A stretch of 64,000 nucleotides of DNA from Thioalkalivibrio sp. ALJ12. GTDB taxonomy: Bacteria > Pseudomonadota > Gammaproteobacteria > Ectothiorhodospirales > Ectothiorhodospiraceae. The stretch covers positions 343,854-407,853 of the forward strand of contig NZ_KB899539.1 of the NCBI RefSeq assembly GCF_000378305.1, read 5' to 3'. The notes under the pieces are model-generated. The model saw only the letters and a program-made list of their open reading frames with translations. It was not told where the DNA came from and did not search any database. Shown piece by piece: positions 53,360-64,000 of the stretch. The position numbers were made by a program, and so were the translations under genes. Within the stretch, counting starts at the first letter, position 1. Every line of letters starts with the position of its first letter.

Positions 53360-53497
53360 ACCAGCCTCAGCGCGAGGCCTGGATGTGATCTCTCAATAGG
53401 TTGTCCACGGGGGACTTCCGCGCGTGGTGCAAACCACGAGCCATAGGTTATCCCGTGTGGCCAAGCAGGCGACGCAGGGCGAGCGGTCGCGGCAGTT

Positions 53498-54472
53498 CTA
53501 CATCGCGGTGCGGTCGCGAACCACAGCGAGCAGTAGTGCGGCAAGCACGGATCGGCCCTGGTTCTGATCGACATAATGGCCATTGCCGGCGGCCGCCATC
53601 GCCTCCAGTAGGTCGCTGGTCTGGCGATCAAGGTCTTCCCAGAATTCATTGCCCTCGGGTATTTCGTGTCTGACCTGGACCGTCGATACGAAGTGTCTGT
53701 CATCCGCCTCCGCAAAGGCCCGGGTGGCTTCCAGCGTACGCTGTTCGAATCCTGCGCGCGCCGGCGCGTCCGTGAACACCACCACATGCCGTTCTTCGGC
53801 CTCGCTGCGCCACTGGATGCGTGATACCTGTTCCATTGCCAGATGGATGTCCTCGGGGACGTTTCCGGAGTGGCGACCGGTCCCCATGCCGATGTTGATG
53901 GCGAGAATGTTCTTCAGGTAGTGGTTCAGCTCCTCCTCGGCCGCCGGGACATCGATATCGGAGACGGCGAGCGGAGCGGGCGGATAACTGTCGCCCGGAT
54001 TGCAGAGCGTCAGGGGATTGTGCACCGTCACGATGCATTGAAACTCCTTGTCCCCAAAGGTCATGACACCGAACCCCAGTGAGGGGGACATCCGCTGGAG
54101 GACTGCCAGCAGTTCCGAGGTCTCGTTCTTGATGCCGTCAATCGCGTGCTGCATGCTGCCGGTCACGTCGACCACCACCACCACGTCCATCGGCCTGACC
54201 TCAAGCCGCTGTACGACCTCGGCCAACCGTTCCGCATCTGTCTGCGCATCTTCCAGCGCTGCCTCCAGCTCCTCCTGCGCGCTGGCCGCCTGTTCCAGCT
54301 CGGCCTCGAGTTCACCCAGCCGCTCCATCAACGCCTCATCATCGAACTGGCTCGTGTTGGGGAAAAACGGCAGGGCGATCACGGCCAGAACGATAAAGGC
54401 ACCCAGCGCGGAGGCGAACAGGTCCAGCGCCGACATGCTGAAGATATTGAGGTCCCGGTTGCGTATTTTCAT
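53498..54472 (-). CDS. Membrane-anchored vWA protein with MotB-like helix
   Basis: A 324-residue protein. One membrane helix (about 14-36) begins with Asp17 (SALDLFASALGAFIVLAVIA), like the ion-binding Asp helices of MotB/ExbD/TolR. A coiled coil follows (about 45-92), then a von Willebrand A domain (about 94-310). The metal site DVTGSM has Asp102, Thr104 and Ser106, with TDAPAR as a later acidic strand. Positive residues before the helix put the vWA domain in the periplasm. It is the last gene of a six-gene leftward operon, 9 bp after the pseudo-trypsin/FHA gene, and is the likely partner of the MotA/TolQ-like protein in that operon. I do not recognise a named protein. Confidence 0.85.
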   Translation of the reverse strand: MKIRNRDLNIFSMSALDLFASALGAFIVLAVIALPFFPNTSQFDDEALMERLGELEAELEQAASAQEELEAALEDAQTDAERLAEVVQRLEVRPMDVVVVVDVTGSMQHAIDGIKNETSELLAVLQRMSPSLGFGVMTFGDKEFQCIVTVHNPLTLCNPGDSYPPAPLAVSDIDVPAAEEELNHYLKNILAINIGMGTGRHSGNVPEDIHLAMEQVSRIQWRSEAEERHVVVFTDAPARAGFEQRTLEATRAFAEADDRHFVSTVQVRHEIPEGNEFWEDLDRQTSDLLEAMAAAGNGHYVDQNQGRSVLAALLLAVVRDRTAM

Positions 54473-54481
54473 ACGAAGACC

Positions 54482-55987
54482 CTATCCCAGCACGTGTACA
54501 TGCAGGGTGATTGACCCCAGGATCAGACGATCCCCGTCTGACAGCGACATTTCGTCCCCAGATCCGAGCACGTGTTCGTTTACCTGCGTGCCATTCTGTG
54601 AACCCTGATCGCTCACGCGCAGTTCGTTGTCTCGAACCCGGAACCGCAGATGTCGCCGCGAGATTTCCGGCAGATTGAGGACGTAGTCCACCTGGCGCGG
54701 GTCACGCCCCAGCGATTGTCCGTCAGGCGAGCGGATGAGGCTGTTGCCGTGGAGCTTGATGCGGATCGGCTGGCCTTCGGGGTCTGTTCCGTCCAGGACC
54801 ACGTCGGGGAAGGTTGCAGTCGCCGCGGACAGCTGGTCATTCACGCGTCCCAGCTTCTGCCGTTCCGTGTTCAGCAGGGCCTTGCGCCGACGCAGCGTCA
54901 GCAGAGCCAGAGCCACCAGCCCGAGGAGCAGGCCAATACCGGCAAGGGCCAGCCAGTTTTGCTGCTGGCGCAGCGCCTGCTCCCGTTCCAGCTGCGCGTG
55001 GCTTTCCTGCTGGGCCCGCTCCAGCTCGGTGGCCCTCTGGCGGATGGTTGCGGCCGTGTCTTCCAGCTCGGCCTTCTCCGCACGTAGCGCTTCCAGTTCC
55101 GATTCGACCCCCGCGAGGCTTTCCAGGGCCTCATTGCGTGCCTGTTCGAGTTCGGCTGTGAGGCGTTCGAGTTCTTCCCGGGCTGCGCCTTCGCGTTCGG
55201 CCTGTTCGATCTGTTCTTCCAGCTGCTGCTGCAGGGCCTCGGCGGCGGTCCGGTGCTGTTCCGCCTGCTGCAACTGCTCTTCCAACTGCCGTTCGAGGTC
55301 CTGTGCCGCCGCGCTGTCCTCTTCCGCCCGTTCAAGCTGAATCTCCAGCGGGAGACAGACCGTATCGGCGCGATTCACGTGAACACCAACCGACTCCAGC
55401 GCGGCTGCGATGCGATGAACCGATGTCGCCGTGTAGGGTGAGGCTGGATCGGCCAGGCGCCGCCGCAAAAAGCCGCCCCGTTCCTCGCGGCTTATACCGA
55501 TCAAATGATTGCAGTGATCAAAGACGGGTGCCGCGCGCGCGTGCAAGGGGTAGCCGGCCCCGTGATGGAATGCGTCGGCGTTGTCCGGAAGGGAGGAAAG
55601 GAACAGCCCACGGCCGCGGTCGCCATCCGCAGAACGTGTATGGACAGGCTGCTCGTCTTTCGGGAGTTCACGTGCAAGCCGGACTGACGGCCCCGGGAGA
55701 TTCGGCACTTCCAGCACGACCAGGTCATGTTCCGGCCATTGCAGCAGGACGGTCCCCGGGAGACGGGCCCCGCGTTCCGTTCGGACTTCCCAGTCGCCAC
55801 GCTGGATCAGGGTGTAGCTGGTGACACCAATGCCGTCGCCGACTACGGTCAGGCTGCCACGTTCCACGATGCTGCCCGCGCGGTCCTGGACCACAATCTC
55901 CTGCACAGGTACGGCAGCGGCCGGGACGGTCCACAGCAGTATCACCAGGAACAGGCCAAGGGTCGCCGAGCGGTGGATCGGCTTCAT
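54482..55987 (-). CDS. Exported pseudo-trypsin, coiled coil, membrane helix and FHA domain
   Basis: A 501-residue bitopic protein. A signal peptide (about 1-25) precedes a DegP/trypsin-like fold (about 30-168). The segment DGIGVTSYTLIQ replaces the catalytic His with Thr, EHDLVVLEV keeps the Asp (Asp88), and the ARAAPVFDHCNHLIGI segment lacks the Ser nucleophile, so it is probably a dead protease used for binding. A long coiled coil (about 216-343), a membrane helix (about 345-364, then LRRRK) and a cytoplasmic FHA domain (about 405-497) follow. The FHA core GRD, SRRH and QNGT is complete, so it can bind phosphothreonine. Its ATG overlaps the PP2C stop by 4 bp. Confidence 0.85.
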   Translation of the reverse strand: MKPIHRSATLGLFLVILLWTVPAAAVPVQEIVVQDRAGSIVERGSLTVVGDGIGVTSYTLIQRGDWEVRTERGARLPGTVLLQWPEHDLVVLEVPNLPGPSVRLARELPKDEQPVHTRSADGDRGRGLFLSSLPDNADAFHHGAGYPLHARAAPVFDHCNHLIGISREERGGFLRRRLADPASPYTATSVHRIAAALESVGVHVNRADTVCLPLEIQLERAEEDSAAAQDLERQLEEQLQQAEQHRTAAEALQQQLEEQIEQAEREGAAREELERLTAELEQARNEALESLAGVESELEALRAEKAELEDTAATIRQRATELERAQQESHAQLEREQALRQQQNWLALAGIGLLLGLVALALLTLRRRKALLNTERQKLGRVNDQLSAATATFPDVVLDGTDPEGQPIRIKLHGNSLIRSPDGQSLGRDPRQVDYVLNLPEISRRHLRFRVRDNELRVSDQGSQNGTQVNEHVLGSGDEMSLSDGDRLILGSITLHVHVLG

Positions 55988-56787
55988 GGGCGGGTGTCCC
56001 CTGTTTCGTTCGCGGCAGGCTGGGCAGAAAGGCAGGCCATGACGATCGTCGCGTTGTCCTGATGGGGTCGCTGCTGTTCGTTAATCGCCGCCAGCACTCC
56101 GTTGATGCGGTCGGCGGCGGTCAGGTCTGCCTCGTCCAGGAGGCGGGCGAGGACAGAAAGGGACAGGGTCTCGATGCCATCGCTGGCCAGTACGATGCAA
56201 TCACCAGGCGCCAGAGGCAGTGGCGCGTTTGGCCGGTCCACCAGGTGGATGTCGTTACCCATCACCGCTTCCAGGAGTTGAGCACGATTGCGGTGATCGC
56301 GAGCCTCCGCGAGGCTGATTTCCCCTGCAGCCGCCTGCTGATCCAAGCGCGCGCCCACGGAATGGATCGCATTGAGGCGCCGCAGGGTGCCTTTTCGGAG
56401 GAGCCAGAGGGGGCTGTCACCGATGCTGAGCCACTCCAGAGACTGGCCATCGAAGGTGGCCGCCACCAGAGTCGAACCCATCCCATCCTGTTCCGGGTGC
56501 GCATCCCGGAAGGCATCGACGGCCTCGTTGGCGGTCTTGAGCCCGGCGATGAGGCGAGCCGGGTTATCCGCGCCCTGTGCCTGAATGAACCCGTCTCGCA
56601 TCCCCTCGGCCACGAGCCGGGAGGCATGGCCGCCCCCAACGTGCCCGCCCATCCCATCGGCGAGCACGAACAGGTGGAAGCCGTTGTCCCACCGTGTAAC
56701 CAGTGCGGTGTCCTGCTGTTCGCTTCTGCCACCCGGGATCTGTGCCCAGGCGGCATCAACCCGAAGGTCGAGTTCAACCTCCGTCAC
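55984..56787 (-). CDS. PP2C-family protein phosphatase, soluble
   Basis: A 267-residue serine/threonine phosphatase. The GTG at 56787 is chosen because it overlaps the upstream FHA stop as GTGA and has AGGA before it; a TTG at 56817 is also in frame. Metal-binding motifs are ADGMGGHVGGG near residue 45, DGMGSTLVAA near 105, IGDSP near 125, LASDGIETL near 200 and HQDNATIVM near 245. The RxxNED entry motif is degenerate (RSEQQD). Cytoplasmic. It probably reverses kinase action on the FHA-containing system and neighbours on both sides carry FHA domains. Confidence 0.9.
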   Translation of the reverse strand: MTEVELDLRVDAAWAQIPGGRSEQQDTALVTRWDNGFHLFVLADGMGGHVGGGHASRLVAEGMRDGFIQAQGADNPARLIAGLKTANEAVDAFRDAHPEQDGMGSTLVAATFDGQSLEWLSIGDSPLWLLRKGTLRRLNAIHSVGARLDQQAAAGEISLAEARDHRNRAQLLEAVMGNDIHLVDRPNAPLPLAPGDCIVLASDGIETLSLSVLARLLDEADLTAADRINGVLAAINEQQRPHQDNATIVMACLSAQPAANETGDTRP

Positions 56788-57416
56788 CGGTCCTGCCACG
56801 AGAAATCGGGGCCGCAAAGCGCCACGAATCGCAGGCGCGTCTGGCCGAGCAGCATTTCCTGACCGGATTCGATGCGGGTGGGGCTGAGTACCAGGTCGTC
56901 ATCGAGGTATACCAAGTTCTTGCCACTGCCCTGCTGCATCAGAAACTGGCGGCCCCGCGGGTCGTAGATGATTGCGGCATGGTGTTCACGGGAGATCTCG
57001 GCATCACCGAAGTCGATACTGATGCGTTGCGTGGCTGCGCGCCCGATGCTGTTCTGCCCTTGCCCCACGGTGAGGACCGAGCCGAGACCGGGCCCGTCGA
57101 CGATCACGAGCCATCCCGCAACCGGATCATCCAGCCCCTCTGTCTCCGAGGTGGCGTGCCGACGGCTGCCCTGAATAACTGTCAGGTTCTCGTCGCGTGC
57201 GGCGACCGGTGCGGGGGAGGGGGTTCCCGGTTGTTTCGCGACCGGGGTGCCGGGCGGTTGTGTGGGTGCTTCTTCCGGGAAGAGGGACGCTCGGCGAACC
57301 GGTGGCGGATCGGTTTCCGCATCGTCTCCTTGGGCCGGGTGCGGTGAGGGTGCCGCTCGGTCCAGATGCGTCGGCACATCTACCGGGGTACCGTCGGGTC
57401 CGCGTTTCTTCGCCAT
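56784..57416 (-). CDS. FHA-domain protein with disordered N-terminus
   Basis: A 210-residue cytoplasmic protein. The first 100 residues are Pro/Thr/Glu-rich and probably disordered, with several Thr that could be phosphorylated. The FHA domain (about 105-200) has NSIGRA, ISREHHAAI and SGKN at the phosphothreonine-binding positions. A strong AAAGGAG site precedes the ATG. It lies 25 bp after the MotA/TolQ-like gene and is coupled to the PP2C gene by a GTGA overlap. It resembles the short phosphoacceptor/FHA partners of bacterial kinases; no specific partner is provable. Confidence 0.88.
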   Translation of the reverse strand: MAKKRGPDGTPVDVPTHLDRAAPSPHPAQGDDAETDPPPVRRASLFPEEAPTQPPGTPVAKQPGTPSPAPVAARDENLTVIQGSRRHATSETEGLDDPVAGWLVIVDGPGLGSVLTVGQGQNSIGRAATQRISIDFGDAEISREHHAAIIYDPRGRQFLMQQGSGKNLVYLDDDLVLSPTRIESGQEMLLGQTRLRFVALCGPDFSWQDR

Positions 57417-57441
57417 GCGAAGCTCCTTTAGCGATCAGGGG

Positions 57442-58248
57442 TCAGTCGTCTTCGTACAGACGGTTGATCAGGTTGTCGAGGCAAGTCTGGCCGGCCCGGT
57501 TCAGAGCCGCTTCCTCGCGACCCTGAGCGATATGCATCAGGAACACCAGTACCGCAGCGAGCAACAACGCAACCAGGGTGGTATTGAATGCGAGCCCAAG
57601 ACTGCCCGTCAGGGTCGTGACCCACTCGCCGACAGCCACCGAATCCTGCAGGTCCGGCATGTGGCCGGCGTTGGACAAAGCGAGAGCGATCCCGATCACC
57701 GTGCCGATGAAGCCCAGAGTGGGAATCAGCCACATGATGTAGCGCAGCATGTTGTATTTGAGGTCGATCTCGTGCTGCATCAATTCTAGGCTGGAGTTCA
57801 TCAGGCTGTTGGCCTGGTTGATGGACCCACTGCTCTGGAATTGCAGAATCGTCCGCTGTATCAGCCGGGGCAGGGCGTATTCCCCGGCTCGGGGTGTCTG
57901 CTGGATCGCGCTGTAGATCGGGCCCAGGTCCTGGCTGCGCAGCATGGAACTGTCATCATCGGGTAGCCAGAGGGTCTCCTGCAGCCGCAGTTCCGCGGAA
58001 CCGCGCTGGAAACGCACCCACAGCTCGCCGAGGCCGACAAAAAAGATCAGCCACATCAGATTCTGGATGGTGACCGGGTAGATACCACTGGCACGGTCCA
58101 GGAGGATGGCCGCCGCCGAAATCTCGCCGCGGTGCTCCGGAGTCGCGAGTGCCAGCGAAGCCAGCGTGATCACTGCCGCTCCGATGATCAGTGCCGCGAG
58201 TGCCACACTGATGCGGTACTGGCTTTCGGCACGACTGCTGATTCCCAT
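57442..58248 (-). CDS. MotA/TolQ/ExbB-family proton-channel protein
   Basis: A 268-residue membrane protein with four helices (about 14-37, 58-77, 168-190 and 210-235). The last two carry the family core: LIPTLGFIGTVIGIALALS and LTGSLGLAFNTTLVALLLA, with the conserved Pro, Gly and Thr. The large cytoplasmic loop (about 80-165) is short for MotA. No tol, exb or flagellar genes are close. The operon's vWA protein has an Asp-containing helix like MotB/TolR, so together they could form a stator-like ion channel. It follows the first FHA gene by 3 bp. Confidence 0.88.
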   Translation of the reverse strand: MGISSRAESQYRISVALAALIIGAAVITLASLALATPEHRGEISAAAILLDRASGIYPVTIQNLMWLIFFVGLGELWVRFQRGSAELRLQETLWLPDDDSSMLRSQDLGPIYSAIQQTPRAGEYALPRLIQRTILQFQSSGSINQANSLMNSSLELMQHEIDLKYNMLRYIMWLIPTLGFIGTVIGIALALSNAGHMPDLQDSVAVGEWVTTLTGSLGLAFNTTLVALLLAAVLVFLMHIAQGREEAALNRAGQTCLDNLINRLYEDD

Positions 58249-58251
58249 GGC

Positions 58252-58617
58252 CTACCTTCCCGAGGAGGCGAGTTCTACCTCGCCGGTGGTGGATTTACGC
58301 CGGGGCCGGACCGAAACGGGTTCGTGTACCGCAACGGCAGGCATCGGCTGGCGATCCGGTAGCCTCGCGATCAGCTCGGACAACTGCAGGGAACGGCCCC
58401 CCAGCGTCAGGCGATCTTCAGGCTCGAGAAAACCCTGGCGCAGGGGCTGCCATTTGTCGCTTCGCCATACGCGCGTGGGGTTGCTGGTGGAACAGGATAC
58501 GGCGTAGAAACGCCCGTCCTCGGTACGGGTGAGCTCGAGCTGGCGCCGAGAGACGGAGGGATCGTCCAGCTGGATATCGGAGGACGCAGAACGCCCGACC
58601 ATGAACGTCCTGAACAT
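58252..58617 (-). CDS. Small FHA-domain protein, degenerate site
   Basis: A 121-residue protein that is almost only an FHA fold (about 5-85). The GR motif is present (MVGRSASSD) and the second motif reads SRRQ where His is usual; the last one is SNPT where NGT is usual. Phosphothreonine binding may therefore be altered or lost. It is the first gene of the leftward operon, about 29 nt behind a good promoter. A Pro/Arg tail (about 90-121) follows. Confidence 0.8.
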   Translation of the reverse strand: MFRTFMVGRSASSDIQLDDPSVSRRQLELTRTEDGRFYAVSCSTSNPTRVWRSDKWQPLRQGFLEPEDRLTLGGRSLQLSELIARLPDRQPMPAVAVHEPVSVRPRRKSTTGEVELASSGR

Positions 58618-58652
58618 CGCCGCCCCGTGTCGTCAAGCCCTGATAATTTTGA

Positions 58653-58681
58653 CTTATAGCAAAAGCCGTTAGGGGGTACAA
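58653..58681 (-). promoter_or_regulatory. Promoter of the leftward operon
   Basis: On the minus strand TTGTAC (58676-58681) and TATAAG (58653-58658) are separated by exactly 17 bp, a good sigma-70 match. The predicted start is about 29 nt before the first FHA gene. Confidence 0.7.
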
Positions 58682-58683
58682 CC

Positions 58684-58699
58684 GGCGCCAGAAGGCGCC
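58684..58699. repeat. GGCGCC inverted repeat in the divergent spacer
   Basis: Two GGCGCC hexamers flank a 4-base AGAA loop. It lies just upstream of the leftward -35 and could be an operator or a leader hairpin of the rightward transcript. Confidence 0.4.
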
Positions 58700-58779
58700 A
58701 TGAGGCCATCCTGCGTCTCCGGCCCGACTTGTGGGCCAGGCTTTCACGCAGTAGTTTGATGGGAAAACGAGGGCCCCGC

Positions 58780-60375
58780 ATGCCGATATGGGACGCATGG
58801 GCGAGCAGCCACATCGGCGGTCGCGACGAAAACCAGGATGCTACGATCATCCTGTCCACAGATGAAGGCACGGAGCTGCTGGCAGTCATCGCCGACGGTC
58901 TTGGCGGGCACGGGGGCGGCGCGGACGCGGCTGCCTGCGTAATTCAGGCCGCCCGCGAGGTCTGGGATGAGCGCCGTTCGGATGTAACACTCAAGGCCCT
59001 GTTGCAACGATTGGTGGCGACGGCCCAGGACAAGGTCCGCAGCTTGAACGTCGAGCGCGGGACCGATGCGGGCAGCACGCTGGCTGCGCTCTGGCTACGC
59101 GACGACCATGCGGCATCCATCCATGTCGGTGACAGCCGCGTTTGCCAGTTCTGCGCGGACGGCTTTGTGGAACGAACGCTGGATCATTCCATCGCCCAGC
59201 TCCAGGTACTGCAGGGCAGGATTTCCGAGGATGAACTGGCCTCCCATCCCGACCAGCACCGCCTGACAACCAGCATTGGTAGCGACGAAGAGCCCCAGGC
59301 GGAGTACCGCGACTGGTCCCTGGCGGCAGGGGACCTCTTCGTACTCGCCACTGACGGCTTCTGGGAAATCGCCGACGGTGAACAGCAGCACCGGGTGCTG
59401 GACAGCGCGGCGCCCGGATCGGCGCTGGACGCGCTGATTCAGGACTGCCTGGAGGCCACCGATGAGGGTCACGACAACACCAGCGCGATTGTGGTGCGGC
59501 CGTTGGCCGGCGATACCCCCAGTGCATCCGTGCGGCGTCGATGGTGGAGCCTCGCGCTGGCCGGGATTTTCCTGGCTGCTGCCCTGCTGCTGGGGGCCTA
59601 TCTCCTGCTGGGAAGCCCACAGATCGAGCCGGCCCCGGAAGTCGCGGAGCGCGCATTGCCGAGGGCTACCCCACCAGCGGGAACGGACTCTGAGCCGGCA
59701 GGGCACTCGGGCCCTATGGAAGCACTTGCAGATGAAGCGGCCGAGGAACTGGCGCTGGAGCAGGCCCCGCCCGAAGGCGACGCGCGCGCCGCCGATCCGG
59801 AAGGGCCGGCCAGAGAGGACGAAGTCCACCGGGGCGCACCGCGGGGCCCGGACCCGGGCGGGCTGGACGCGTTCGAGCAGCGCGTACAGATACCGTATCT
59901 CGCAGACGAGGAGATGGACGGCGAGACCCTGTCTGCGGCCCTGCGTGAAGCAGACGTGCTGGGAGACGACGAATCCCTGCGGATGCGCCGGGGCCAGCAG
60001 ATACTTGAGGGGCGAGAGTCCATCCGCTTTGACCTGTACTTTCAGGGATTGCCAGTGTGGGGGAGTGTGGTTAACGCCCGTGTCGAGCAGGGTCAAATCG
60101 TAATTCTCCGGGGCGAGCGGCCCCATGCGATCGACCTGCCAGAAGAAGCGACCCTGTCATATCGGGAGGCCCTGGCGCATGCGGAGGCGTCACTGGGCAA
60201 AGCGCTGTCTCCGGCCGACGAGGGGCGCCTGTACGTGTACCGGTACGACCCCGAAGGCAATCGATATACGCGCGCCTGGCACGGACTGGTGGCGAACGAT
60301 ACCTATGTCCTGATCGATGCCCACCGCGGCACGCTGTTACAGAGCTGGTCCGCGATCATGGAGCGCTCGATGTGA
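58780..60375 (+). CDS. PP2C phosphatase fused by a membrane helix to a periplasmic protease-propeptide-like domain
   Basis: A 531-residue protein from the ATG at 58780, which has GAGGG 6 bases upstream; in-frame starts at 58729 and 58759 lack a site. The N-terminal PP2C domain (about 1-245) has the full metal set: GGRDENQD, ADGLGGHGGG, DAGSTLAA, VGDSR, ATDGFWEI and GHDNTSAIVV. A helix (about 257-277, after RRRWW) crosses the membrane. An acidic Pro/Glu-rich linker leads to a domain (about 395-531) that matches FTP/PepSY propeptides of thermolysin-like proteases (YFQGLPVWGSVVNARVEQGQ, then YVLIDAHRGTLLQSW). A real M4 protease follows with a GTGA overlap, so this could inhibit or fold that enzyme in trans. 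Confidence 0.88.
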   Translation: MPIWDAWASSHIGGRDENQDATIILSTDEGTELLAVIADGLGGHGGGADAAACVIQAAREVWDERRSDVTLKALLQRLVATAQDKVRSLNVERGTDAGSTLAALWLRDDHAASIHVGDSRVCQFCADGFVERTLDHSIAQLQVLQGRISEDELASHPDQHRLTTSIGSDEEPQAEYRDWSLAAGDLFVLATDGFWEIADGEQQHRVLDSAAPGSALDALIQDCLEATDEGHDNTSAIVVRPLAGDTPSASVRRRWWSLALAGIFLAAALLLGAYLLLGSPQIEPAPEVAERALPRATPPAGTDSEPAGHSGPMEALADEAAEELALEQAPPEGDARAADPEGPAREDEVHRGAPRGPDPGGLDAFEQRVQIPYLADEEMDGETLSAALREADVLGDDESLRMRRGQQILEGRESIRFDLYFQGLPVWGSVVNARVEQGQIVILRGERPHAIDLPEEATLSYREALAHAEASLGKALSPADEGRLYVYRYDPEGNRYTRAWHGLVANDTYVLIDAHRGTLLQSWSAIMERSM

Positions 60376-62657
60376 TCTGGAGGTGCAGCCCTTGCGACCG
60401 GCCGCGGCACCGCACCTCCTGGTGGGGCTATGCGGTGTTGTTGCTGCTGATCTGGCCGCTTGTGGGGCTGGCCGGGCTCGATAGCACCGACAGTCCCCGA
60501 GCCGGTTTTGTCGACAGCGGTACGTTCCTGGTGGACCTGCCTGCATCAGGCCCGCTCAACACCTCGGCCGACGTACAGCAGTGGCTGGATGCGGAACTGA
60601 AACACGTACTGGGGCTGGAGGCCCGTGATCACCTGGAGCTCGAGCCTGGACGTGCGGATGCCGCCGGCTTTGTCTACTACCGAACCCAGCAGCTGCACGC
60701 TGGGCACCCAGTGATCGGCAATGACGGAGTCGTAGCGATCGATTCCGCCGGTATTCCCGGTGTGTTTCTTGGCCGCCACGCGGCGCTGGGCGATGTGTTA
60801 GTGGAAGCCGGGATCGATCACGAGGAGGCCCGGCGACGATCCGGGGTCCTGCCCCTGACCGAAGACGCGCCCGCCCTGGTGTACTGGCCCGGTGAAGACC
60901 GCTTCCATCTCGCCTGGAAGTTCGCTGGTTCCCGGGTTGAAGGCGAGGAAATGTCTCGGCTGTACGTGGATGCCGGTACCGGCGAGTTTCTGGGTTCGTT
61001 ACCGCTGGTATTCCACACCAGGGATCGTCACGTCCACGACATGTCCGCGGCCTGCTCGGCCCAACGTGTCACGGGCCTTATGACGCCGGGCGGCAGCAGA
61101 CTATTCATCCAGCTTGAGGTTCAGCGCCCCGAATACACCCGCAGTGAACATGATCGTCCGACCGGGCGAGCGCATGTCGATCGCATGCACGATCTGATGG
61201 GGGACCTGTATACCTTTATCGAAGCCGAGTTTGGCATGAGCAGCATCGACGATAACGGCATGCCGCTGCGGGCAGTCGCGGGCGCGCGCTTCAGCCATCT
61301 CCCGAACGTGACGTGGCCGCAATGCGTAGGGGATGGCTTCAATGCGCAGTGGCATCCAGCGATCAATACCATGGTGGTTCCGGAGTCGGTACTGAGCCAC
61401 GGCCTCGTCGAGGTGGTCGCACACGAACTCGGGCATGGCATCGTCAGCAACGGGAGCCGGTTGAACAACAGTGCGCAGGCCGGCGCACTGAACGAGTCGG
61501 TATCGGACCTGGTCGGGGTCGCGTTTCGGGCCTGGCGTCAGGCCGGGGGGCGCATGGACCGGCCGATTGCACAAGGATTTGACTCCACGCGCGAGGTATG
61601 GGGACTGCGGTATACCGATGGGTTGATCCGCGATATGGCCAACCCGCGCAATGCCGACCCCGGTTATCCGGATCACTTTTCCGGTTTCCTAGCGCCAACC
61701 GAGGGTAACAACCGCGCACACGCCAACGCGAACATCCTGAACCATGCATGGTTCCTGATGGCAGAAGGCGGCCAGCACCGGCGGCTCCGCAGCGGACCGG
61801 CGGTAGAGGCGATCGGGCTCAGAAAGACGGCGCAGATTGCGGCGCATGCGGCCTCGCTCACCATGTCCTCCGCGACCAGTTACTACACGGTCCGCAATGC
61901 ACTGGCCCAGAGTGCGGAGAACCTGTTCGGAGAACATTCGCGGGAGTGGCAGACGGTGCACGAGGCACTGGACGCAGTCGGGATTCCCGGTAACTGGCGC
62001 CGACCGCCCGTGATCGAGTCGCCACCCGTCCCTGAACCGGAGCCGGCCCCTGCCCCGGAACCGCCACCGGTACCCGAGCCTCCCGTGGTGCCGGAACCGC
62101 CACCGGTCGAAGAGGTTCCGGAGATTGCCGACGAGACACCCGACCAGCCCCTGCTGTTTGCGCTGCTCGCACTGCTGGTTGCAGCAGCCCTGGGGGCCGT
62201 CATTCTCTCGAGGCCGCGCCACCCGGACGCTCGACCATCGGCTCCGCGCTTCGTGGCCCAGGGGGAGCAGCCGGCACGGAGGGACGAAACGAATGTACCG
62301 GCCGCAGCGGCATCCTCCCATGGCCTGGCCGAACCGACCTGGTCACTGCGGGCAATGGACGGCTCCGAGTCCATACCCCTGCACGGCGACCTTTTGCGAT
62401 CCGGCGAGGGGGTTGTGATCGGAAGGGCGCCGGAACTTGCTCATGTATGCATGCAGAGCCGGCAGGTATCCAGGCGCCATCTGCGCCTGTTTGAACGCAA
62501 TGGTCAGTTGCGCTTCGAGGATCTGTATTCGAGTCATGGAACGCAGCTGGACGGACATACGGTTCCGCCCTTTTCACCCGAACCCCTCAACGAAGGCCAG
62601 ATCCTGGGGTTGGCGGGTTTCAGCTATCAACTGGTGCGATCGCGCGCGCCGCAATGA
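60372..62657 (+). CDS. Membrane-anchored M4 (thermolysin-family) metalloprotease with cytoplasmic FHA domain
   Basis: A 761-residue protein starting with GTG at 60372, GGAG 8 bases upstream. An N-terminal helix (about 17-37) precedes a self propeptide (FTP/PepSY, about 45-215). The catalytic domain carries the zinc site HELGH (His351, Glu352, His355) and Glu375 in ALNESVSD; the 24-residue spacing between His351 and Glu375 equals thermolysin His142/Glu166. His450 fits the thermolysin His231 position. A Pro/Glu-rich hinge (about 550-590), a second helix (about 594-614) and an FHA domain (about 665-755; GRAP, SRRH, SHGT) follow. Both ends are in the cytoplasm, the protease outside. I know of no described protease with this layout. 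Confidence 0.9.
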   Translation: MIWRCSPCDRPRHRTSWWGYAVLLLLIWPLVGLAGLDSTDSPRAGFVDSGTFLVDLPASGPLNTSADVQQWLDAELKHVLGLEARDHLELEPGRADAAGFVYYRTQQLHAGHPVIGNDGVVAIDSAGIPGVFLGRHAALGDVLVEAGIDHEEARRRSGVLPLTEDAPALVYWPGEDRFHLAWKFAGSRVEGEEMSRLYVDAGTGEFLGSLPLVFHTRDRHVHDMSAACSAQRVTGLMTPGGSRLFIQLEVQRPEYTRSEHDRPTGRAHVDRMHDLMGDLYTFIEAEFGMSSIDDNGMPLRAVAGARFSHLPNVTWPQCVGDGFNAQWHPAINTMVVPESVLSHGLVEVVAHELGHGIVSNGSRLNNSAQAGALNESVSDLVGVAFRAWRQAGGRMDRPIAQGFDSTREVWGLRYTDGLIRDMANPRNADPGYPDHFSGFLAPTEGNNRAHANANILNHAWFLMAEGGQHRRLRSGPAVEAIGLRKTAQIAAHAASLTMSSATSYYTVRNALAQSAENLFGEHSREWQTVHEALDAVGIPGNWRRPPVIESPPVPEPEPAPAPEPPPVPEPPVVPEPPPVEEVPEIADETPDQPLLFALLALLVAAALGAVILSRPRHPDARPSAPRFVAQGEQPARRDETNVPAAAASSHGLAEPTWSLRAMDGSESIPLHGDLLRSGEGVVIGRAPELAHVCMQSRQVSRRHLRLFERNGQLRFEDLYSSHGTQLDGHTVPPFSPEPLNEGQILGLAGFSYQLVRSRAPQ

Positions 62658-62675
62658 ATATGCCGGGGCTAGGAA

Positions 62676-64000
62676 ATGACTGACCACAAGAACGCCTTGC
62701 CGGCGGGGACGGTGCTGGATAACCGTTTTCGGATCGAAGGCCTGCTGGGGGCCGGTGGTTTCGGCATGGTCTATCGGGCGGTGCACGTGCATCTGGAGCA
62801 GGTCCGCGCGATCAAGGAGTACCTGCCACAGGAAGTGGCGATGCGCGAGGGCGTCACGGTGCATCCGCTGAGTCGGGACAGCCGGGGCGACTACGAGGAA
62901 GGGCGGCAGCGCTTTCTGCAGGAGGCGCGCCAGCTGGTGCGCTTTTCCAGTCATCCGAACATCGTCACCTGCACCGACTTCTTCGAGGCCAACGGCACCG
63001 CCTATCTGGTCATGGAGTACGAGGACGGGCTGCCGTTGTCCGGGCTACTGGCGGGCCGGGAGGCCCAGGGGCGGCCCCTCGAGGAGTCGGAGATCCTGGG
63101 CCTGTTGCGTCCTATCGTCGCAGGGCTTGCCGAGGTGCACGCACAGGATGTCCTGCACCGCGACATCAAGCCGGGGAACATCTTCATCCGCCGCAGTGAC
63201 GAGCAGCCCGTGCTGCTGGATTTTGGTGCGGCCAAGGTGGAGTTTTCGAAGCACAGCAAGTCGCGTCACGCACTCACGCCGGGCTATGCGGCCCCGGAGC
63301 AGATCACAGACATTGGCAAGCTCGGGCCGTGGACGGACATCTACGCCATCGGGGCGGTAATGTGGCGCATGGTCACGGGCGAAAACCCGGTAAAGAGCGA
63401 GGCCCGCGGGCACACGCTGTTCCGTGGCGGCGAGGACCCGGTGGCTCTGGAGGGCCGGGCGGGCGCAAGCCGCTTCAGCCAGGGCTTCCTGCAGCTGGTT
63501 TCCGACTGCCTGAACTACGACGAGACCCAACGGCCGCAGAGCGCGGAACAACTGCTAACGCAATTGGACGCCGTGGCGCGAGGAGAGGCATCGCCAGTCT
63601 CGCCCGGTCGGGAACAAGCGGCGGATCCTGCGCCGGAGAAAAGTCCTGATATTGCCCCCGTGGAAGGGTTGCGCTCGGGTAAAAGGGACCCGGTGAAAGG
63701 CCATTCCGTTCCCGCGTCTCCGGGGCGGAAGATCGGCCTTGGCGTTGCCGGTCTTGTCGTGGCGGCGGGCATTGGAGGCGTGCTCTGGACGATGATGCCA
63801 ACGGAACATCCGTCCGACAGTGCCGAAAGCGGTGCTGCCGAAGTCGAGACCGTGGACCAGCGACAACCCAGTGATGCCTCTCTGGTGGAGGTGGAGGAGG
63901 ATGCCTCCGCAAGCGCCGAGACTCAGCCGAGTACGGAAGCGGGGGCAGAGACGGACTTTAGGCGAGCAGTGCAGGCGTGGTATTTCGATCATGATCGAGA
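62676..64000 (+). CDS. Membrane-anchored serine/threonine protein kinase, cut at the right edge
   Basis: The first 441 codons of a Hanks-type kinase; the gene runs off the window. The ATG at 62676 follows AGGA. The glycine loop GAGGFGMVY (about 25-33), Lys47, catalytic HRDIKPGN (Asp163), LLDFGAAK (Asp182) and APEQ are all intact. The KEYLPQEVAMREGVTVHPLS segment after the Lys resembles kinases of type VI-secretion and FHA-linked loci. A helix (about 353-374) crosses the membrane and an acidic periplasmic part follows. It lies 18 bp after the protease gene and is probably the kinase whose products the FHA domains read and the two PP2C enzymes erase. Confidence 0.92.
   Translation, partial: MTDHKNALPAGTVLDNRFRIEGLLGAGGFGMVYRAVHVHLEQVRAIKEYLPQEVAMREGVTVHPLSRDSRGDYEEGRQRFLQEARQLVRFSSHPNIVTCTDFFEANGTAYLVMEYEDGLPLSGLLAGREAQGRPLEESEILGLLRPIVAGLAEVHAQDVLHRDIKPGNIFIRRSDEQPVLLDFGAAKVEFSKHSKSRHALTPGYAAPEQITDIGKLGPWTDIYAIGAVMWRMVTGENPVKSEARGHTLFRGGEDPVALEGRAGASRFSQGFLQLVSDCLNYDETQRPQSAEQLLTQLDAVARGEASPVSPGREQAADPAPEKSPDIAPVEGLRSGKRDPVKGHSVPASPGRKIGLGVAGLVVAAGIGGVLWTMMPTEHPSDSAESGAAEVETVDQRQPSDASLVEVEEDASASAETQPSTEAGAETDFRRAVQAWYFDHDR

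Follow-up and report, generated by a model that had tools for sequence, protein, structure and literature searches.

A candidate phosphorylation-gated motor and protease cassette in Thioalkalivibrio sp. ALJ12

Overview

The window analysed here, a stretch of 64,000 nucleotides from Thioalkalivibrio sp. ALJ12 (positions 343,854-407,853 of contig 2; source genome 2.78 Mb), contains most features of a cassette of 12 genes and 15.7 kb, which extends from 53,363 to about 69,065 and the right part of which lies beyond the window edge; the DNA past that edge was included. The cassette combines Ser/Thr kinases, PP2C phosphatases and FHA-domain proteins (among them FHA2 and FHA3) with a channel subunit of the MotA/TolQ/ExbB family (StA), a MotB/ExbD-like partner carrying a periplasmic vWA domain (StB), a pseudo-trypsin and an M4 metalloprotease. 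In the reading proposed here, to which we assign a probability of about 0.5 for the whole chain, a circuit of kinases, phosphatases and FHA domains gates a motor-coupled periplasmic protease that is restrained by propeptides. The parts are known ones, and no description of the 12-gene set was found among the matches listed in a search of the open-access literature, with subscription papers and preprints outside the search.

An earlier reading made from the sequence alone (the sequence-only reading) had described nine genes in two divergent sets, and both the open reading frame (ORF) positions and the domain searches agree with it: six ORFs lie on the minus strand and three on the plus strand. 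FHA domains occur four times among them and PP2C domains twice, alongside a single M4 domain that has its catalytic residues and a single MotA_ExbB domain. The spacings are +9, −4, −34, +25 and +3 bp in the minus set and −4 and +18 bp in the plus set, so that the overlaps or gaps of 3-25 bp claimed earlier hold for all except one overlap of 34 bp. The search for further members past the right edge yielded three.

The cassette as a unit and its recurrence

Of 30 genomes of the genus, 28 possess the gene that lies to the left of the cassette, presumably a phosphorylase of the methylthioadenosine/purine type, and the DNA on its right side was compared between the window genome, six other genomes and the G020 region. 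In G016 and G024 (94-95% DNA identity), the match ends at 53,362 and 53,359, respectively, and restarts at 69,066, with about 80 bp between the two. The restart lies at 69,066 in G019, at 69,120 in G039, and only at 70,804 in the more distant G040 and G023. These breaks in the match show that the stretch between 53,363 and about 69,065 is a block that a genome either has or lacks, with ends that coincide with those of the system. In G020, a remnant of the vWA gene with a broken reading frame occupies the same site (L014:11788-12633) and the match restarts at 70,797, where the cassette appears to have decayed or been lost. The block is not marked by composition (63.5% G+C vs. 63.9-64.3% in the flanks). 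A mobile element was considered and rejected, with no integrase among the 12 cassette proteins and no obvious end repeat by eye, no dedicated repeat search having been made; no relative of the vWA protein turned up among viral contigs.

To survey other genomes, a profile of four StA proteins alone was run against 84,980 named genomes, which gave 128 relatives, and the best 80 of the 128 were examined (L064 and L075 among them being records G081 and G259). Seven parts were counted as the core, i.e., StA, StB, FHA2, FHA3, PP2C, kinase and an FHA-tailed protease or pseudo-protease, using custom profiles for which the window proteins and the sequences they matched were the source, with E-values that refer to small sets; ORF picking was heuristic in high-GC contigs. 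At least six core parts were present in 51 of the 80 loci (all seven in 29, six in 22), and the addition of FHA2 matches masked by ORF overlap gives 52 loci with at least six parts and 33 with seven. StB was matched in 67 loci, PP2C in 59, FHA2 in 58, the kinase in 57 and FHA3 in 51, and FHA3-StA-FHA2-PP2C are adjacent on a single strand in 37. The order in L015 is FHA3-StA-FHA2-PP2C-trypsin-fold-FHA-StB-kinase, parts of which recur in L016, L017, L018 and L019. The loci belong to seven phyla (Pseudomonadota, Acidobacteriota, Rhodothermota, Bacteroidota, Latescibacterota, Gemmatimonadota and Binatota), with many metagenome bins and with cultured marine carriers in Alteromonas, Aliiglaciecola and Pseudidiomarina, for example Aliiglaciecola lipolytica and Pseudidiomarina mangrovi.

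In an even sample of the class, StA was found in 6 of 369 genomes, and the same six carry the StB N-terminus, a co-occurrence with a chance probability of 2e-12 (a conservative value, with G020 included and the genomes treated as independent); StA and the StB gene are on separate contigs in G078 and G314. It was also considered whether the genes adjoin only by chance or form a loose island of signalling genes that have nothing to do with one another, in line with the absence of some parts from some relatives. This explanation, to which we give practically no credence, is refuted by the gene order kept across phyla, by the shared presence of StA and the StB N-terminus in those six genomes and by the precise cassette ends. 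The cassette with its empty site and the recurrent neighbourhood, recovered through StA alone, bear out the earlier claim that the genes belong together, and we regard it as nearly certain that they form one functional system.

The distribution is also patchy, which would suit an anti-phage or conflict system of Zorya-like logic, in which envelope damage would be sensed by the motor, with the kinase/protease part as the effector. StB is present as a whole in one of the 30 genomes from its own genus, where a second genome keeps a remnant, and in 2 of 26 genomes of another genus, which is of the Idiomarina kind; StA is present in 6 of 369 genomes of the class. When the vWA protein was the query, 2 of 47 genomes of the order had a match (the window genome and the G020 remnant), as did 9 of 369 of the class; two of these nine, G165 and G071, match outside the N-terminus, with other vWA proteins. 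The cassette behaviour with empty sites, a weak match of StA to ZorA (2.7e-5), TIR-like and methyltransferase-like neighbours (named by eye) and three transposase matches among the flank proteins point in the same direction. However, no nuclease or other known effector was seen among the 12 cassette proteins (nine of them scanned with PADLOC), and the matches of the kinases to defence models seem to reflect nothing more specific than kinase similarity. With PADLOC at 1e-20 on 111 of 192 flank proteins, 32 models were matched, with no control set scanned; of the 25 of these 32 models that were shown, one was hit by two proteins and the rest by one each, and many are alternative models that share just two names, MTase_II and RmrA. 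The conflict-system explanation seems to us rather improbable. A defence island was rejected, the flanks having few strong PADLOC matches and a mixed Pfam content (among 25 of 134 families listed).

The putative motor of StA and StB

The vWA domain that the sequence-only reading had assigned to StB stands, its match being just under the Pfam cut-off in the window (24.0 vs. 24.8 bits) and over it in relatives; the reading of the protein is corrected in that it begins with a transmembrane (TM) helix of MotB/ExbD type. This N-terminal segment is nearly fixed, typically REINIFSMSALDLFASALGAFILI, and its Asp is present in 77 of 77 copies, which come from 72 of the 89 loci searched (the window and L014-L021 included) and were gathered by means of a helix profile, five of the 72 loci having two StB. 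Within the vWA part, D102, S106 and D235 are invariant across 23 aligned copies, and the closest solved structure for the window domain is a BatB-type chain. In StA, P176, T183, T223 and T224, located on two helices and presumably pore-lining by comparison with ExbB and MotA, are conserved in 84 of 84 aligned copies; close to the end of the protein lies a further conserved segment, EE..LN..GQ. No ExbD/TolR domain was detected among the cassette proteins scanned, and a search of solved structures with the StA profile found none. StA and StB are direct neighbours in 19 of the 80 loci; the window has three intervening genes.

The load carried by StB varies among relatives, which possess a vWA domain of one of two types or else a domain marked by the motif DVDLHV.DP. 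For the latter, the DUF2135 identity is only suggestive because DUF2135 was matched in 4 of 14 copies with a best E-value of 0.028; the profile of this domain gave nothing convincing against solved structures.

Taken from sequence, the StA and StB residues form the signature of a 5:2 motor with StB as the predicted axle, and it is probable that such a motor would be ion-driven. Known 5:2 motors power flagella, outer-membrane transport, division and phage defence; to our knowledge, none drives proteolysis or runs on Ser/Thr phosphorylation. A different explanation is that StA and StB serve as a scaffold or passive channel in envelope signalling, with no motor work, and that the protease clips a sensor or an anti-sigma-like protein. 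Sets of FHA, PP2C and kinase proteins are common signalling parts, the two kinases differ outside the kinase domain (one has Sel1 and Lcl_C there, and the other no recognised domain), and the trypsin fold lacking the Ser motif could be a ligand-binding sensor, all of which would agree with such a role. However, the Asp of StB and the Thr and Pro residues of StA, kept in every copy counted above, exceed what a scaffold should need, and we consider this explanation unlikely.

An exchangeable protease slot

The trypsin-fold protein of the window has neither the His nor the Ser motif of an active S1 enzyme, and a trypsin-fold protein of this pseudo-enzyme type with an FHA tail was matched in 49 of the 80 loci. 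Many relatives have a second, active trypsin-fold protein (Ser motif present) with the same kind of TM-FHA tail, found in 27 loci, whereas the M4-TM-FHA protein of the window was matched in 13, where no active trypsin was seen in the fetched stretch. Across 81 loci, the window included, 14 thus have M4, 27 have active S1 and none has both, an exclusivity with a chance probability of 0.002 if the loci are independent. All 13 M4 loci hold StA and StB, in agreement with the expected co-occurrence of the protease with the vWA/channel pair. The sequence-only reading had named M4 as the protease part, which is indeed present but is only one version, the active S1 enzyme being the commoner occupant of the slot; the conserved core is also wider than had been noted.

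On StA trees, the M4 and S1 states are separated by one change, and the exchange was therefore one replacement event. In a tree of the FHA tails (116 columns, weakly resolved, with some very long branches), each of the 14 M4 proteins has, as its four closest tails from outside the M4 group, tails that belong to active S1 enzymes rather than to the commoner pseudo-enzymes. We read this as a probable head swap within one slot, M4 being one version of an interchangeable protease. H351, E352, H355, E375, D379 and H450, i.e., HExxH with the Glu, Asp and His, are invariant in 14 of 14 M4 proteins, so that M4 is a predicted protease with intact catalytic residues. The M4 proteins of the clade of L030, L031, L038, L040, L041, L042 and L048 have two tandem FHA domains instead of one. 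The sharing of an FHA-tailed slot by two unrelated enzyme classes suggests controlled periplasmic cutting as the output, and we hold proteolysis to be the likely output of the system.

A propeptide displayed by a phosphatase

The periplasmic end of the second PP2C protein is not recognised by Pfam. In a profile-profile comparison, this C-terminal domain matched the M4 propeptide with 98% probability (E-value 6e-14), compared with 0.2% for two control pairs, which identifies the domain displayed by the phosphatase as a homologue of the M4 propeptide. Twelve relatives were aligned with the window copy of this PP2C-TM-propeptide protein. Its profile matched in 11 of the 13 M4 loci, in one of them (L022) fused to M4, and in the remaining two, L042 and L048, a PP2C-TM protein that aligns with the family adjoins the M4 gene. 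In Pseudomonas sp. WN033, PP2C-TM-propeptide-M4-TM-FHA is a single chain of 1,028 residues with one propeptide, and because of this fusion the separate PP2C-propeptide and M4 proteins of the window are very likely partners.

FHA2 tails and the phosphorylation circuit

Outside its FHA domain, FHA2 has an N-terminal tail, and 64 tails of 66 FHA2 proteins were collected. Three Thr motifs occur in 41, 47 and 51 of the 64 tails, compared with 6.8, 10.5 and 3.9 in shuffled sequences; the last of them is of the type [DE]xT[RKVQ][LIVAF]..G. A looser pattern with E/D two or three residues before T is found in 64 of 64 tails vs. 56.5 in shuffles. E/D stands at −3 of Thr in 46% of cases, and Ser shows no such preference. 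The tails would fit phosphorylation by the kinases and reading by FHA domains, a suggestive match. FHA2 also matches the NCBIfam models of OdhI and FhaB below their cut-offs and may be a switch of the GarA/OdhI/FhaB kind; candidate phosphorylation sites in the tail of the window copy are T16, T35, T52 and T79. In two loci (L016:10799-11383 on the minus strand and L077:2324-2941), the tail starts with paired Cys resembling a zinc ribbon before the Thr motifs, as judged by eye. The binding of an FHA domain to a phosphothreonine of a membrane protein has a precedent in TssL and Fha (PMC3953482).

The same kinase, PP2C and FHA logic is found in the regulator module (PpkA/PppA/Fha) of the type VI secretion system (T6SS), and the cassette might thus belong to such a module or to another known secretion system. 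PpkA, too, has an outside vWA domain, as described for it in PMC3224232, and two FHA proteins of the cassette match TagH weakly. However, the genome gave no match to the sheath protein VipA (PF05591), for which the E. coli control was positive, other T6SS families not having been searched. The right flank, where a secretion cluster had been named as a possible outcome, contains, as judged by eye, genes of the biotin, fatty-acid, folate and housekeeping categories, and no secretion family was present among 25 of 134 families listed for the flank proteins of relatives. With the VipA search negative and no secretion cluster in the right flank, a T6SS regulator is ruled out for this genome, and a place in any known secretion system is extremely improbable.

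Proposed mechanism

The sequence-only reading had proposed that phosphorylation controls the assembly of a periplasmic proteolytic complex, perhaps powered by ion flow. Its view is borne out in part: the parts and their genetic linkage are established, whereas control by phosphorylation and the use of ion flow are inferences that gain indirect support from the Asp and Thr residues of the 5:2 type, from the Thr motifs of the FHA2 tail and from the propeptide displayed by PP2C. In the proposed mechanism, a pentameric wheel of StA would surround a dimer of StB, forming an ion-driven motor of the 5:2 type with the vWA domain as its periplasmic load. The kinases, the C-terminal domains of which are probably variable sensors, would phosphorylate cytoplasmic threonines, most likely those of the acidic FHA2 tail and perhaps also the motor. 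The FHA domains of FHA2 and FHA3 and of the pseudo-protease and protease tails would bind these phosphothreonines and dock the membrane proteins onto the motor, and the soluble PP2C would undo the phosphorylation. The periplasmic output would be proteolysis, with the protease and pseudo-protease acting beside the driven vWA domain. Two homologous propeptides would restrain M4, its own and the one borne on PP2C, the latter of which may be an extra brake or a chaperone. A changed phosphorylation state, or the motor-driven vWA rotor, might then free the protease or present its substrate.

Several observations weigh against this mechanism. Fewer than six core parts were present in 29 of the 80 loci, some of them at contig ends, and 13 loci hold only two parts. 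Among these 13, ten Gemmatimonadota loci (L083-L086, L089-L091, L093, L094 and L096) consist of StA and a divergent StB-vWA only, and because they hold nothing else, the motor can do without the remaining parts; the pair may be a minimal motor lacking phospho-signalling. Seven Rhodothermota and Bacteroidota loci with most or all of the core have no recognised protease in the fetched stretch (L023, L029, L033, L035, L037, L039 and L044, which show the pseudo-trypsin only, L023 and L033 being short contigs). The conservation of the StB helix is partly a matter of selection, since the copies were gathered with a profile of that very helix, and the exclusivity of M4 and S1 is statistically weak because the exchange is one event on the tree. 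The evidence from the FHA2 motifs is only suggestive, as these were picked after reading the tails and the homologues are related. Inhibition in trans by the PP2C-borne propeptide may be dispensable because M4 has its own propeptide and the fused form has only one.

Beyond the single cassette, we tentatively propose, with the odds somewhat against it, a new class of transmembrane machine in which a phosphorylation-gated, ion-driven motor operates a tethered periplasmic protease, with S1 or M4 heads, with loads of two vWA types or of a DUF2135-like kind, and with a transmembrane phosphatase that carries the propeptide of the protease. If this were true, one protein would perform both dephosphorylation inside and zymogen control outside, and a phosphatase-carried propeptide would be a new route for a signal across the membrane. 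The cultured marine carriers make the system directly testable.

Gene inventory and flanks

The genes of the cassette are listed in Table 1; the topology was derived from hydropathy in 12 related loci and from reading of the sequence.

Table 1. Features of the cassette in and beyond the window (positions of the window, continued past its right edge)
Feature	Position	Strand	Remarks
Window part of the cassette	53363..64000	.	Empty site in G016 and G024
StB: MotB/ExbD-like trans-pore helix (Asp17), coiled coil and periplasmic vWA	53498..54472	-	
Pseudo-trypsin - coiled coil - TM - FHA	54482..55987	-	FHA 1.5e-14; Trypsin_2 below cut-off
Soluble PP2C phosphatase	55984..56817	-	PP2C_2 7e-9, above cut-off
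FHA2: FHA with Thr-rich acidic N-terminal tail	56784..57416	-	FHA 5.3e-6
StA: channel subunit of the MotA/TolQ/ExbB family	57442..58248	-	PF01618 9.7e-11, above cut-off
FHA3: small FHA-domain protein	58252..58617	-	FHA 2.3e-10
PP2C - TM - thermolysin-type propeptide (FTP+PepSY)	58729..60375	+	PP2C_2 7.5e-16
M4 metalloprotease with own propeptide - TM - cytoplasmic FHA	60372..62657	+	Peptidase_M4_C 1.1e-28, FHA 2.4e-11
Ser/Thr kinase 1, N-terminal part	62676..64000, runs on to 65,357	+	Pkinase 7.2e-42, Sel1, Lcl_C
Lipoprotein-like gene	65,533-66,231, beyond window	+	
Gene of unknown kind	66,228-67,064, beyond window	+	
Second kinase	67,077-68,774, beyond window	+	

The soluble PP2C matches the Stp1/IreP model with an E-value of 3.6e-31, yet stays under the cut-off of that model. 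Past its kinase domain, kinase 1 has a TM segment (by eye), Sel1 repeats and Lcl_C, and no further domain was recognised in the second kinase. The first 881 bp of the two kinase genes (62676-63556 and 67077-67957) are 92% identical, with 240 bp fully so and no long DNA match beyond, a likeness probably due to recent duplication or gene conversion. Downstream of the cassette lie genes named by eye as a LuxR-type regulator, aminotransferases, holB, tmk, mltG, pab and fab genes.

Comparison with known systems

With TolQR, ExbBD and MotAB, the cassette shares PF01618 and the Asp/Thr pore signature; in contrast to them, the cassette family has exchangeable periplasmic loads and cytoplasmic FHA partners. 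Zorya comprises a MotA-like channel, ZorA, and a MotB-like ZorB with a peptidoglycan-binding domain within an accessory gene set. The cassette likewise places a MotA-like channel and a MotB-like partner in an accessory set, but its load is a vWA domain rather than a peptidoglycan-binding domain, and it has proteases and phospho-signalling instead. Membership in Zorya was rejected, as no match to ZorB, ZorC, ZorD or ZorE was found among the eight window proteins scanned. The PpkA/PppA/Fha module of the T6SS shares the control of a membrane machine by kinase, PP2C and FHA, whereas the machine of the cassette would be a motor with a protease, in a genome with no VipA sheath match.

The closest published description is that of the TPH-vWA/TolQ-like family in a 2025 paper about force transducers, in which a TolQ-like channel is combined with a vWA protein bearing a trans-pore Asp, with no ExbD/TolR (PMC12204202). 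The trans-pore helix with its Asp, the vWA domain and the lack of ExbD/TolR are found in the cassette as well, and rotation of vWA inside the TolQ-like pentamer is a prediction of the same paper (Mol Biol Evol 2025, PMC12204202). The earlier claim that the system is undescribed accordingly stands for the whole set in the literature searched, but not for TolQ-like/vWA motors as such, which that paper describes (PMC12204202). In that family, vWA lies adjacent to tolQ, mostly in pairs, whereas three genes separate StA and StB in the cassette. In the main text of PMC12204202, 'kinase' occurs 0 times and 'fha' once (in FhaC), and its section 8 mentions neither phosphatase nor protease, all of which the cassette has. 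One of the loci (L021:8614-11473) contains a TolQ-like gene followed by two tandem vWA genes, the helix of which is of another kind; this may be the paired family of 2025. Two Idiomarina-type genomes have no match to this tandem vWA protein and possess other MotA/ExbB-family genes. In a 2025 survey of MotAB relatives, 'vWA' is absent from the main text (PMC12505986).

A survey of vWA-MoxR ternary systems describes one system made of a kinase, PP2C and a stand-alone vWA protein, and others with trypsin-like peptidases (eLife 2020, PMC7159879). A term search of that source shows no MotA/ExbB, and FHA there belongs to the effector domains (PMC7159879). Finally, the metalloprotease of the cassette shares with the thermolysin family M4 the HExxH motif, the Glu, the Asp, the proton-donor His and the FTP/PepSY propeptide, but differs from it in being TM-anchored with a cytoplasmic FHA domain and in having a second propeptide on a phosphatase.

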